A program made the translations under genes and the position numbers. From Gammaproteobacteria bacterium (lineage in GTDB: Bacteria > Pseudomonadota > Gammaproteobacteria > SZUA-229): DNA of 39,758 nucleotides. The stretch lies in assembly GCA_026196035.1 (NCBI GenBank), contig JAPHQX010000074.1, positions 1 through 39,758 of the forward strand. Reading direction: 5' to 3'. Below, piece by piece: positions 10,191-15,264 of the stretch (its first letter is position 1; each line of letters starts with the position of its first letter). Under the pieces are notes generated by a model that had not been told where the DNA came from, searched no databases, and saw nothing but the letters and a program-made list of their open reading frames with translations.

Positions 10191-10872
10191 TTATTTCGCC
10201 TTTCTGGCGAGTCACTTTTCTGTCTTCAGCAACAGAAAAGTAACCAAAAGAATGCTGCCCAATACAGTTTGCCCTACGGGTACCCGAGCATTGGTAACTC
10301 ACTCTCTCAAAAATTCTTTCAAGATTTAATTAATTTACCTTCGTTGCCAGGTCGTCTCGATTCGCCGTCGTGGCTCATTTCGACTAAATTTGCCGTCCAT
10401 GGCAAATTTACCCTACAGGCAATCAATGCTCGGCAAACTGCAAAGGGAAGATAAATCAAAAATGAAACCGTCACCATCTATCATTGCGAGCGATAGCGAG
10501 TTTAAAGCGTTTTTGATTTACCTCCTCATGGAGCAAGCCGAGGAGCGAGTGATATTTTTGGGGGCTTTATCCCGGGCGTCCTGCCCTTCACCCTTCGGGC
10601 CAGATCATAAAAAGCATGATCTGTTCAAATTGCTCCTGGCAATTTAGTCTGCGAGGATGTCTGAGCGAATCGTTTTTTGATTCGTGAGTTCCGCAGCAGC
10701 CAAAAACATCGGGAGTGACAAGGGTACCACCATGCGCTTTTTACATGGTGGCTTACGACTCGGAGCGTGCTTTCTTTGGTTCTGTTTCTTTTGCACGAGC
10801 AAAAGAAATGAACTCGCTCAGAAAGAGCGAAATAATGTGTGAGGATTGAGCACTAACAATAAAGAGCCAAAA
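10191..10872. repeat. about 640-680-bp element with inverted twin-hairpin ends (MITE-like)
   Basis: The left end carries two hairpins: TCGCC/GGCGA (10196-10200, 10206-10210) and ACTTTTCTGT/ACAGAAAAGT (10214-10223, 10232-10241). The right end, read on the other strand, has the same arrangement: TCGCTC/GAGCGA (10814-10819, 10825-10830) and TTTCTTTTG/CAAAAGAAA (10785-10793, 10800-10808). Sequence around the hairpins (TTTCGC-TTTCTG-GCGAGT) matches between ends, so they act as terminal inverted repeats. Stem sequences differ but pairing is kept. The right 370 bases recur inverted at 12323-12692. No transposase is encoded, so it would be non-autonomous; exact outer borders are uncertain. Confidence 0.65.
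10503..10872 (+). repeat. 370-bp repeat, left copy (inverted relative to 12323-12692)
   Basis: Reverse-complemented, this segment aligns end to end with 12323-12692 at high similarity with only small differences (by-eye alignment, identity not computed). Shared blocks include TTTTGGCTCTTTA, AATCCTCACACATT, CACTCCCGAT, CTCGCAGACTAAATT, CCAGGAGCAATTTGAACAG, ATCATGCTTTTTATGATCTG and GGCCCGAAGGGTGAA. The two copies flank the DUF1015 gene. Confidence 0.88.
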
Positions 10873-10892
10873 CACCGGGAATGATAAAAAGA

Positions 10893-12116
10893 TTAATCCA
10901 GTACATGCGACACCAGACCATCTGCCAGCTTGGGCTCGAACCAGGTCGACTTGGGTGGCATCACTTCATTGGCATCGGCCACCGCCATTAAATCTTCCAT
11001 GCTGGTGGCATACATCGAAAACGCCACGGCCATTTCACCTGAATCCACTCTTTTCTCCAGACCTTCAAGACCGCGAATACCACCGACAAAATCAATCCGT
11101 GGATCGGTGCGTGGATCTGAAATACCCAGTAATGGTTCAAGTAAATTATTCGCCAGTAAACTCACATCCAGTTTAGCGACAGGATCAGATGGAATTAAAT
11201 CCGCATTGATATTTAGACGATACCATTCACCATCAATATACATACCAAACTCAGCAGGTTTAGATGGTTTAACCGGTGCTGATTCTTTTACGCAGGTAAA
11301 ACTGCTTTCAATTTTACTGATTAACTCTTCTTTAGTTAAACCATTTAAATCAGTCACTACCCGATTGTAATCAAAAATTTGCATCTGATTGTGGGGGAAA
11401 ATAACTGACAGAAAATAATGACTCATCTGGTCATCAGACCCACCAATGGATTTAGCCACGCGTGAAGCCGAAGCAGAACGGTGATGACCATCGGCAATGT
11501 AAATCGCTTCCATGGCATCAAAACCAGCACTGAGTTTTTCAGTTATTGCATCATCTTCTACCACCCAGAAAGTATGACCGATACCATCGTCCGCTTTTAG
11601 ATCATATAAAGGTGCCCCTTCAGCCACTTTCTCAAGCAGTGCATCCAGTTCAGGTTCTGATTTGTAGGCCAGTAACACAGGACCTGTCTGAGCATTCAGG
11701 GCTTCAATCTGACGCACCCGATCATTCTCTTTCGCCGGACGGGTAAACTCATGCTTACGAATACGATTAGTGTCGTAATGCTTAACCGATGCGGCCGCCA
11801 CCAGACCGGTCTGCACATGATCACCCATGGTCAGGCGATAAACATAATAACGGGGCTGATCTTCACGCATCAGAATACCTTCGTCGATCAGGCGCTGCAG
11901 GTTCTCCGCGGCCTTGGCATAAACCGCTGGATCATAGGGATCAATATCTTCAGGCAGATCGATTTCAGCCTTGGAGATATGCAGGAAGCTGTTGGGCTTA
12001 CCGGCAGCACGTTCACGGGCTTCGGCGCTGTTCAATACATCATAAGGCGGTGCGGCGACGTCTTCAGCATGTTGTGGAACGGGGCGAAGACCGGCGAAGG
12101 GGCGAATCAGAGGCAT
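10893..12116 (-). CDS. DUF1015 family protein
   Basis: A 407-residue soluble protein matching DUF1015 throughout: MPLIRPFAGLRP at the start, AAPPYDVLNSAEAR, NSFLHISKAEID, YYVYRL, GLVAAASVKHYD, IRKHEFTRPAKENDR, the central IADGHHRSASA, HYFLSVIFPHNQMQI and the DPRIDFVGG block. Function is not established; family members are often found with serine-metabolism genes, and the DGHHR motif recalls ParB/sulfiredoxin-fold nucleotide-binding enzymes, so a kinase-like role is a guess. It stands alone, bounded on both sides by the same repeat in opposite orientation. Its composition does not look foreign, so the repeats probably landed beside a resident gene. Confidence 0.85.
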   Translation of the reverse strand: MPLIRPFAGLRPVPQHAEDVAAPPYDVLNSAEARERAAGKPNSFLHISKAEIDLPEDIDPYDPAVYAKAAENLQRLIDEGILMREDQPRYYVYRLTMGDHVQTGLVAAASVKHYDTNRIRKHEFTRPAKENDRVRQIEALNAQTGPVLLAYKSEPELDALLEKVAEGAPLYDLKADDGIGHTFWVVEDDAITEKLSAGFDAMEAIYIADGHHRSASASRVAKSIGGSDDQMSHYFLSVIFPHNQMQIFDYNRVVTDLNGLTKEELISKIESSFTCVKESAPVKPSKPAEFGMYIDGEWYRLNINADLIPSDPVAKLDVSLLANNLLEPLLGISDPRTDPRIDFVGGIRGLEGLEKRVDSGEMAVAFSMYATSMEDLMAVADANEVMPPKSTWFEPKLADGLVSHVLD

Positions 12117-12322: not shown

Positions 12323-12692
12323 TTTTGGCTCTTTAGTATTAGTACTGAATCCTCACACATTTTTTCGCTCTTCCTGAGCGAGTTCATTTCTTTTGTTCGT
12401 TCAAAAGAAACCGAACCAAAGAAAACACGCCCTGATCACAAGCCACCATGTAAAAAACACATGGCGGTTCCATCGTCACTCCCGATATTGACGGCTGCTG
12501 CGGGGCTCACGAATCGAAAAGCTGATTCGTTCAGACAGTCCTCGCAGACTAAATTTCCAGGAGCAATTTGAACAGATCATGCTTTTTATGATCTGGCCCG
12601 AAGGGTGAAAGGCAGGACGCCCGGAATAAAGCCCCCGTAAATATCACTCCCTCCTCAGCTTGCTCAATGGGGAGGAAAATCAAAAGCGCTTT
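12323..12692 (-). repeat. 370-bp repeat, right copy (inverted relative to 10503-10872)
   Basis: It begins TTTTGGCTCTTTA and ends AATCAAAAGCGCTTTA, matching the reverse complement of 10503-10872 over the same length. Both end hairpins are kept: TCGCTC/GAGCGA (12365-12370, 12376-12381) and TTTCTTTTG/CAAAAGAAA (12387-12395, 12402-12410), with different loop sequences. The other half of the larger element is absent, so this is a partial copy or the basic unit. Confidence 0.88.
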
Positions 12693-12714
12693 ATGATCTG
12701 CTAGCACCCCAACC

Positions 12715-12791
12715 TGTCATTGCGAGGAACGCAGTGACGAAGTAATCTCGGTAGCAAAGCAGGAGATTGCCGCGCTCCGCTCGCAATGACA
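12715..12791. repeat. REP-like palindromic element
   Basis: TGTCATTGCGAG (12715-12726) pairs perfectly with CTCGCAATGACA (12780-12791), and the inner AATCTC (12744-12749) pairs with GAGATT (12763-12768). The whole 77-base unit can fold as one long interrupted hairpin, the form of widespread REP/small-MITE elements. Confidence 0.8.
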
Positions 12792-12970
12792 GACTCTAAA
12801 CGCTTCTAATAAAAACCATGCGCAGCACACAAAATGTTTTGACTGACCTCCTCTTCACAGTAAGCAAGGCGAAACAGAATGTCAAAACCACCCCACTAAA
12901 TTAGAAAAGAATGATACACAAAACAAATTAATAAAAATAATGTAGGATTGCCTTTATGAGTCAGGGTTAG

Positions 12971-13044
12971 ACAGCTTCCACCTATCACAGAAAACATAGT
13001 TTCTGCCCATCACCCTGAACATAGTTTCCACCTATTACACTGTT
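12971..13044 (+). repeat. three tandem ~25-base direct repeats
   Basis: Units at 12971-12994, 12995-13019 and 13020-13044 share the pattern CATAGTTTCCACCTATTACA with a few changes; the first is more diverged and one base shorter. They abut the GTTAGAT core site that begins the cassette. Function unknown. Confidence 0.7.
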
Positions 13045-13064
13045 AGATTAATGTATTGAATCTC

Positions 13065-13601
13065 ATGAAACTAATTGGCCTCACATTACTAACATTAACT
13101 CTCCCGATTTCTGCAGAAGCATACAATGCGCCCCAACAAAGAACACTTGAAGTCGAAAGCCAGATATCATTACCGCCTGACCCTGAGGAAAATGGGAAAG
13201 CCAATTTGTTGGGATTTGATGTTGATGGTGATGGGATTCGTGATGATATCAAGAGATATTTAGAAATTAGATACTTTGACGAGCCTAAATTGAAAGCAGT
13301 ATTTCTTGACTATGCTCTATTTTATTTAAAAACAATTTCAGCTTCAAACCAGAATAAGGAAATTATTCAGAAAATAGCCAAAGAGCCCAAACCTGCTTCT
13401 TGGTGCCTACAATGGTTAACAGACCAAAAAGAGAGAGACTATAAGCCCGAAAAAACTAAGCTTAAAAAAAGAATATACAATACTATGGAACGACACAAGG
13501 CAAATATGATATTTCACTCTAAATTATCAGGCACTCATTTTAAATTGCAAAAAAGAGATCGCGAATCACCTTGTGCTCATTATGGGCTGGGAGATTATTA
13601 A
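13065..13601 (+). CDS. cassette-borne secreted hypothetical protein
   Basis: No family recognised. The ATG at 13065 gives 178 residues; a TTG three codons earlier is possible but less likely. No strong ribosome binding site precedes either, which is common for cassette genes that rely on an outside promoter. MKLIGLTLLTLTLPISAEA is a typical signal peptide with cleavage after AEA, so the product is probably exported. Residues near 50-62 read GFDVDGDGIRDDI, a DxDxDG calcium-binding-like loop of the EF-hand/thrombospondin type 3 kind. The C-terminal half is basic and contains two Cys (WCLQW and SPCAHYG) that could form a disulfide. Composition is A/T-rich relative to neighbours. Confidence 0.7.
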   Translation: MKLIGLTLLTLTLPISAEAYNAPQQRTLEVESQISLPPDPEENGKANLLGFDVDGDGIRDDIKRYLEIRYFDEPKLKAVFLDYALFYLKTISASNQNKEIIQKIAKEPKPASWCLQWLTDQKERDYKPEKTKLKKRIYNTMERHKANMIFHSKLSGTHFKLQKRDRESPCAHYGLGDY

Positions 13602-13614
13602 CATTACACAACCA

Positions 13615-13672
13615 ATCTAACAATGTATTCAAGTGGGTCGCAAAATGCACACCACTTAACCAGACGTTAAAA
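13615..13672 (+). other. attC recombination site (58 bp)
   Basis: ATCTAAC (13615-13621) fits the RYYYAAC R'' box and GTTAAAA (13666-13672) fits GTTRRRY except for its last base. Inside, TTCAAGTGG (13628-13636) pairs with CCACTTAA (13652-13659), leaving C13630 unpaired exactly where attC sites carry an extrahelical base, and AATGTA/CCAGAC form the unpaired spacer between boxes. Length matches the classical '59-base element'. Confidence 0.82.
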
Positions 13673-13673
13673 A

Positions 13674-14639
13674 CTAAAAATCCCCAGCCGCCTGCAAATC
13701 CGCATGATAAGAAGACCTCACCATCGGCCCACTCGCCACCTGCTTGAATCCCATTTCCAGTCCGCGCTGTTTTAATTCATCAAATTCCACCGGCGTCACA
13801 TATCGCTTAACCGACAAATGATGCACACTCGGTTGCAAATACTGCCCCAGGGTCAACATGTCTACATTATGTTTTCTTAAATCCAGCATTACCTGAATCA
13901 CTTCATCCGTTTCTTCACCCAGACCCAGCATCAAACCGGATTTTGTTGGCACGTCATCACAGAGCCGTTTGTAATCCCGCAACAATTCCAGTGAACCCTG
14001 GTAATCGGCGCCGGGGCGTGCTTCTTTATATAAACGTGGAACAGTTTCCAGATTATGATTAAATACATCCGGTGGTGTCTGTTTTAAAATTTCTGTGGCG
14101 ACATCAACTCTGCCGCGGAAATCAGGCACCAGGACTTCAATTTTTATATGTGGATTTAACTCACGAGTTTTTGAAATACAATCGGCAAAATGCTGAGCAC
14201 CACCATCGCGTAAATCATCACGATCGACCGATGTGACTACCACATATTTTAAACTCATTGCTTTTATTGTTTCTGCCAGACTGGCGGGTTCATTTTCATC
14301 CAGTGCTAACGGTCGGCCATGACCGACATCACAGAAGGGACAACGTCGGGTACAGATTTCACCCATGATCATAAAGGTGGCTGTGCCGTGACCAAAACAT
14401 TCGCCCAGATTTGGACAGGATGCTTCTTCACAGACGGTAAACAGTTTCTGTTCACGGAGTATTTTTTTTAGCCGTTTAACTTCAGGGTGCGCCGGTGATT
14501 TTGCTCTTATCCATTCTGGCTTGCGCAATAAAGTTTCAGTCTTTTTAACTTTTATCGGTATACGGGCAACCTTGGCTTCGCCGCGTAATTTCTCACCGGC
14601 AATTTTTTTATTGTTTGTGACCTTGTTTTCTTCAGTCAT
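13674..14639 (-). CDS. lipA: lipoyl synthase LipA
   Basis: Radical-SAM enzyme that inserts two sulfurs into protein-bound octanoyl groups. From the chosen ATG (MTEENK) it has 321 residues, the usual size; an ATG six codons upstream would lengthen it and overlap lipB more. The auxiliary cluster motif [12 protein letters not shown] (Cys70, 75, 81) and the radical-SAM CTRRCPFC (Cys96, 100, 103) are intact, with [54 protein letters not shown] and the C-terminal [10 protein letters not shown] block. The start overlaps the lipB stop by 8 bases, indicating coupling. The stop is only a few bases from the attC-like site, so the cassette replaced whatever lay downstream. Confidence 0.96.
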
Positions 14640-15264
14640 GGATTTCTCGTATTTCATCTATATCAAACTGCTGATATAGAAAGGGAAGATAATTTTCTGC
14701 AACTTTCTGAATACTATCATCGACACCCAGTTTACGCATACTGGTGACTTTAAGGCCTGGATAACCGCAGGGATTTATCTGTTCAAAGGGTGCAAGATCC
14801 ATATCCACATTAAGACTTAATCCATGATAACAACCGCCCTGTTTAACTCTTAAACCCAGTGCGGCGATTTTTTCATGATCAACATAGACACCCGGCGCAT
14901 CTTTTCTGGCCGCTGACTGAATATTTTTTGTCGCCAGATAATCAATCACCGACTGTTCAAGTCGACTAACAATGTTGCGCACGCCCTGCTTACGACGCTT
15001 CAGATCAAACAGAATATAAATAATTAACTGACCGGGACCATGATAGGTCACCTGTCCACCACGATCAGTTTCAACCAGTGGAATAGCACCCGCATCGAGT
15101 ATATGATCCGGTTGTCCATTGAGACCTAATGTAAATACCGGGGGATGCTGTAATACCCAGATTTCATCTTCAGTGATGGAATTTCGGCTCAGATTAAACT
15201 GCTGCATCTGTTGCCAGGTAACTGTGTAATCCTGCAGTCCAGAATGACGAACAATCACGGTCAT
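14632..15264 (-). CDS. lipB: octanoyltransferase LipB
   Basis: Cytosolic transferase that moves octanoate from acyl carrier protein to lipoyl domains, feeding LipA. The protein has 210 residues with [12 protein letters not shown], the glycine-rich [13 protein letters not shown], the catalytic lysine in KIAALGLRV (Lys132) and the catalytic cysteine in INPCGYPGL (Cys166). [15 protein letters not shown] is also conserved. It follows ybeD by six bases and overlaps lipA, so ybeD-lipB-lipA form one transcription unit, in the order known from E. coli and Pseudomonas. Confidence 0.96.

Follow-up and report, generated by a model that had tools for sequence, protein, structure and literature searches.

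The locus examined here raises the question of how a single integron gene cassette came to lie beside lipA with no integrase gene next to it. The DNA analysed (the window, 39,758 nt) is contig 72 (C72) of a draft gammaproteobacterial genome of 2.27 Mb in 152 contigs, 73% complete. An initial annotation had described a single cassette that has a canonical attC but lacks a neighbouring integrase, a description that is borne out by the present analysis. It had also placed the insertion at a non-attI secondary site, G/TTAAAA (the slash marks the point of crossover). This second claim is not supported, since the 27 nt around the crossover match the attI sites flanking the integrase genes of eight relatives, and the cassette array of a sibling genome lies in the same interval behind a similar site. 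With somewhat better than even confidence, we regard the cassette as the remnant of a chromosomal integron, consisting of an attI site and one cassette whose cognate integrase gene (intI) has been lost, between a DUF1015 gene and lipA.

Both flanking genes are read from the minus strand (Table 1). The name DUF1015 for the left one is our own assumption. The closest matches to its product are proteins from MAGs of uncultured gammaproteobacteria; identity to those from Thiohalobacter and Thiogranum MAGs is 70–75%. The same part of the window contains a ~230-bp element in two inverted copies (10648–10875 and 12323–12548), ~81% identical to a repeat in contig C130 of the sibling G002, and a REP-like palindromic stretch follows the second copy at about 12712–12800.

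Table 1. Features of the cassette locus in the window and of one locus in a relative
Feature	Position	Strand	Basis
DUF1015 gene (presumed name), other flank of the conserved interval	10893–12116	−	ORF table, synteny in relatives
Three 17-nt direct repeats, 25-nt spacing (12973, 12998, 13023)	12973–13039	+	Repeat search; third repeat inside the attI-type core
Candidate attI-type site; L-like box CCTATT at 13031–13036; crossover G13042/T13043	13019–13045	+	Sequence model of eight attIs
Integron gene cassette, 624 bp	13043–13666	+	Complementarity of R' GTTAGATT and R'' AATCTAAC; attC model
Cassette gene; predicted secreted protein of 178 aa, GFDVDGDGIRDDI motif, two conserved Cys	13065–13601	+	ORF; relatives
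attC	13615–13672	+	Boxes by sequence; covariance model
attC R'' box ATCTAAC	13615–13621	+	
attC L'' box TTCAAGTGG, unpaired (extrahelical) C at 13630	13628–13636	+	
attC L' box CCACTTAA	13652–13659	+	
attC R' box GTTAAAA	13666–13672	+	
Right junction G13666/TTAAAAA	13667–13673	+	Abuts the lipA stop codon (13674–13676, minus strand)
lipA, right flank of the cassette	13674–14657	−	ORF table; synteny
Relic integron of G005: attI-type site, array, N-terminal intI fragment only	L274:6055–6436 (contig C11)		

The segment next to lipA is a genuine integron gene cassette. Its core, its gene, the attC boxes and the extrahelical C all lie where the initial annotation had put them between 13042 and 13672, and the boxes stand at canonical spacing. 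Counted from 13042, the first bases read GTTAGATT, whose reverse complement, AATCTAAC, is the exact R'' end of the attC (8 of 8 nt). This is the best cassette start within 3 kb upstream, and a 5' end complementary to its own R'' is what a circularisable cassette has. Since the start pairs with R'' and the R' box closes the attC, the cassette is delimited to the 624 bp given in the table. It carries one gene, oriented as the attC.

A covariance model, proposed as a check in the initial annotation, was built from 33 attC sites of relatives' arrays with the window left out and loops of more than 16 nt shortened. The structure of this model shows covariation (score 0.299, against 0.072 for shuffles and at most 0.106 for slid versions). 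This independent family model matches the window attC at 44.2 bits, with E 7e-8 in 109 kb and 1.5e-6 over the whole assembly, where the runner-up reaches 18.5 bits (E 1.6); the score is mid-range among true sites. No other attC was found in the assembly, which is 73% complete, and a direct DNA search of the same genome revealed no second copy. As single-stranded DNA, either strand folds with a z-score of about −2. A sub-threshold Rfam match to mir-1002 was set aside as a chance hairpin likeness. Such single cassettes had been thought to be rarely noticed; attC sites are present in 43 of the 54 family genomes, several of them standing alone.

The product of the cassette gene has the features already ascribed to it, namely an N-terminus resembling a signal peptide, DVDGDG and two Cys, and no Pfam, NCBIfam or PDB family fits it; scattered Pfam/NCBIfam matches of single family members (E 0.02–0.1) were dismissed as chance. 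From these motifs, our guess is a small exported protein that may bind calcium. Plasmid relatives from Vibrio, Sulfurovum, Acinetobacter and Aeromonas are 21–30% identical; both Cys and a GxDxxxxGxRDD motif are invariant among five relatives, and NTxxR is conserved. Together with the plasmid proteins of L097–L100, the window protein forms an unnamed family of putatively exported proteins. The surroundings of the four plasmid relatives inspected showed no attC; thus, the family is not cassette-bound in general. Searches of the 54 family genomes, GTDB genome contigs, viral contigs and phages gave no match. The single-sequence structure prediction (pLDDT 43) is too poor to use. The ATG follows the crossover after a leader of 22 nt, and a search of 12850–13800 for sigma-70-like promoters found none on the forward strand.

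The left junction reads ...CCACCTATTACACTG/TT. In relatives, first-cassette starts were located by the R'/R'' rule, and eight integrase-adjacent sites upstream of intI (G007, G023, G035, G012, G015, G071, G028 and G013) served as the attI reference set. These share ...CTAATnnACTG/TT or variants, which the window junction matches; its ACCTATTACACTG/TT differs from the G007 attI, ACCTAATACACTG/TT, by one base over 13 nt. The window site was picked after many left flanks had been viewed and was excluded from both models derived from the eight attIs. On a weight matrix made from these alone, it scores 15.1, against 12.8 for the best background GTT site (none of 35,815 is as high). The eight true attIs score 11.1–21.8 when each is left out in turn, and the window site is therefore typical of them. 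Similarly, the sequence model R2 finds its sole window match at 13019–13045 (E 0.009), a partial one that covers 27 of the 43 model positions. Eight matches of the sequence model occur in 194 kb of relevant loci, all at cassette edges, and none in 666 kb of control loci. The left junction thus looks, from its sequence, like an attI-type site at the start of a cassette.

The attI core also recurs 24–27 nt upstream. At least 7 of 13 positions match in seven of the eight integrase-adjacent sites versus 14% of background GTTA sites, and at least 9 of 13 in four of the eight versus 1.1%. The three direct repeats of the window would by this pattern be putative accessory repeats bound by an integrase. 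Beyond about 75 nt, the left flank has no accepted homology to integrase-attI regions.

Whether an integrase is present depends on the scale considered. The "no integrase" of the initial annotation stands for the window, where tblastn (E ≤ 0.1) detects no IntI fragment and another search (E ≤ 0.05) was likewise empty, and fails for the genome, where one protein exceeds the integron-integrase cut-off, a full-length IntI on contig C41 (381 bits against a cut-off of 265). This gene (L044:603–1601, +) lies beside metK, with a probable first cassette at 93–410 (−) whose attC is truncated by the end of the contig, about 98 nt beyond its R''; the metK region of G002 lacks this integrase. Across the family, intI was found in 29 of 54 genomes. 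In all 21 cases inspected, the assembly breaks 0.2–8 kb upstream of intI, where the array is expected, so that the absence of an array from such a draft carries little weight.

In a tree of 30 integrases, all eight owners of the window-type attI fall in one clade of 14 (clade A, support 100/98). The C41 integrase lies outside it, is 39–49% identical to ten other integrases compared, and has an attI of its own, ...TAGTAATAG/TT. The attI type follows the integrase clade. Given this, and since non-cognate IntI/attI pairs are generally inefficient (PMC8946536), the integrase matching the window site is not in the assembly; a clade-A enzyme has either been lost from the genome or lies within the missing 27%. 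The C41 integrase, of another clade and with a different attI type, is an unlikely but possible partner of the cassette. Most clade-A integrases bear an N-terminal extension of ~150 aa before the usual start, which fills most of the interval from start to attI and shows a weak, below-cut-off likeness to a second SAM-like core-binding domain (Phage_int_SAM_4, E 0.03). Those of G023, G012, G015, G071, G007 and G035 (L054, L051, L058, L059, L070 and L069) are 456–476 aa long. A literature search brought up no description of a ~150-aa extension of integron integrases.

The relatives provide two further lines of evidence. On contig C191 (L176) of G002, the order is DUF1015, a HipBA-like pair, a modABC-like operon, an attI-type site and cassettes. 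The end of C191 overlaps C211 (L132) inside a cassette (111 nt at 100%), and C211 continues with more cassettes and about 2.5–3 kb of other genes up to an overlap with the lipA contig C227 (276 nt, 98.6%). The order was thus pieced together from contig overlaps rather than read from one contig, and the genes were named from their translations. The G002 array has the orientation and the attI type of the window cassette. It stops about 2.5–3 kb short of lipA, whereas only 7 nt separate the window cassette from the lipA stop; the two insertions therefore share the interval, not the same base. No intI was found in G002. The corresponding interval of G007 spans 3.5 kb and has no attC. Both siblings carry a glyoxalase-like gene downstream of lipA, most intervening genes of the sibling's interval were not found in the window's assembly, and no relative with matching flanks on both sides of the cassette was found.

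The second line comes from G005, which carries a window-type attI, an array and only a truncated N-terminus of intI (63% identity over 63 aa with G023, E 4.6e-17). This is a decaying integron caught midway, which displays the decay route in another genus; loss of intI with retention of attI thus does happen in the family. Separately, a similarity of window 12983–13031 to G005 (78% over 50 nt) was considered as an intI fragment and rejected, as translated searches were empty.

Type-A attI sites with cassettes and no adjacent integrase also occur in G024 (C20 and C23), G034 (C2), G059 (C3) and G002 (C191). Several other attI-like sequences were observed. Four contigs of G024 (C20, C23, C9 and C1; L264, L265, L266 and L267) carry cassettes at attI-like sites that lack an adjacent integrase, and on C23 and C1 a near-perfect palindrome of ~46 nt (ACCGGAATATTG...CAATATTCCGGT) precedes the site. 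In G002, the same 18 nt, AATCCGTATAACACACTG, stand before two different first cassettes on C191 (L176:1400–1417) and C179 (L162:1889–1906), pointing to differences between strains or a duplicate of the site. Contig C219 of G002 (L144:2461–2487) has ACATAATACCTGTCCACATACACTG/TTAATACC, possibly an empty attI-like site without a cassette, with an upstream region 67% similar to window 12897–13009.

These observations have to be weighed against several histories. A chance insertion of one cassette at a secondary site other than attI would fit the G/TT at both ends and the lone attC, and a landing right after a gene end is harmless; however, the left flank is attI-like far beyond chance and the sibling's cassettes occupy the same interval, and we consider such an event very improbable. 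Even less credible is a fragment of a longer living array collapsed to one cassette by assembly. The breaks upstream of intI in family assemblies and the 73% completeness speak for it, but C72 is an unbroken stretch of 39.8 kb that spans the cassette with its two junctions, and the right junction leads straight to lipA.

Insertion in trans at a dispersed attI-like site, by an integrase encoded elsewhere and at a locus that never held intI, is the main rival, although we find it rather doubtful. Orphan type-A sites with cassettes exist in several genomes, with two copies in G024. Such a pair could mean that dispersed attI-like targets are used in trans, and is less well explained by the decay of a single integron. 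The window also lacks any intI remnant, and insertion at attG sites is described as experimentally established (Loot et al. 2024, as cited in PMC12444791 and PMC11023631). Nevertheless, a trans-acting clade-A integrase would be expected in these genomes, and in a small sample selected by attC, seven of the eight with orphan sites have none in their assemblies; moreover, the upstream direct repeats exceed the needs of a minimal G/TT target. A broader scheme, which we regard as speculative and quite unlikely, is a distributed integron, in which the family would keep several scattered attI-type sites with one or a few cassettes each. One or a few integrases would serve these sites in trans, and the additional N-terminal domain of some of the enzymes may recognise the direct repeats.

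The relic reading draws on the sole real attC, the attI-like left flank with its 25-nt repeats, the link between attI and integrase clade, the interval shared with G002 and the intermediate in G005. It is weakened by the missing intI fragment, by the left flank beyond about 75 nt, by the different insertion point in G002, by the two separate type-A sites of G024 and by the partial attI match. We infer descent from a complete integron at this locus, followed by loss of intI from the genome; since the window holds no intI fragment, that loss is a deduction here. In this history, an extended clade-A integrase would have bound the attI-type core and the direct repeats, spaced 25 nt apart, in double-stranded form and recombined the site at G13042/T13043 with the folded bottom strand of the cassette's attC. 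Its gene would then have decayed, leaving the cassette fixed at a docking site of about 12973–13045 that keeps this one cassette. A compatible IntI should still be able to mobilise it in trans.

Comparison with known systems helps to place the locus. IntegronFinder 2.0 admits single-attC CALIN as possible true positives, and the window resembles a CALIN in having a cassette with attC and no neighbouring integrase (PMC9024848). By default, however, a CALIN needs at least two attC without intI, whereas the window and the assembly have one, so that only the single-attC definition fits; furthermore, the left end bears a recognisable attI-type site, which IntegronFinder seeks only for class 1. With attG insertion, as cited from Loot et al. 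(2024, Nat Microbiol 9:228–240), the window shares a cassette that lies at a chromosomal G/TT, away from an integron platform. attG sites are described as markedly divergent from classical att sites (PMC12901181), while the window target is attI-like and has direct repeats. The CALIN beside secD in Xanthomonas citri pv. citri, inactivated by intI loss, likewise has cassettes at a conserved chromosomal locus without intI (PMC12444791); the window differs in its one cassette, in its locus at lipA and in having no integrase remnant. The attI1 of class 1 integrons has two accessory repeats (DR1 and DR2) that promote recombination of attI1 with attC and are absent from attIA (PMC8946536). The window likewise has an attI-type core with upstream direct repeats, which would correspond to them. 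Unlike attI1, it has three repeats at 25-nt spacing. We take the two sites to be unrelated in sequence save for a CTAA-like L box. Of a complete integron, the window retains an attI-type site at the array start, as judged by sequence, but not the adjacent intI.

The cassette itself is of a known kind; what is new is the attI family and its orphan copies. According to the authors of IntegronFinder, attI sites have been little characterised except in class 1 integrons, which is why they go undetected (PMC9024848). The short consensus derived here for the attI of a single integrase clade could be used to tell relic integrons from random cassette insertions, which searches for attC alone cannot separate, and the set of attI-type sites provides concrete material on attI recognition by an integrase other than that of class 1. 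The locus suggests that a cassette can persist alone at a conserved position after its integrase is gone, and can mark a former integron.
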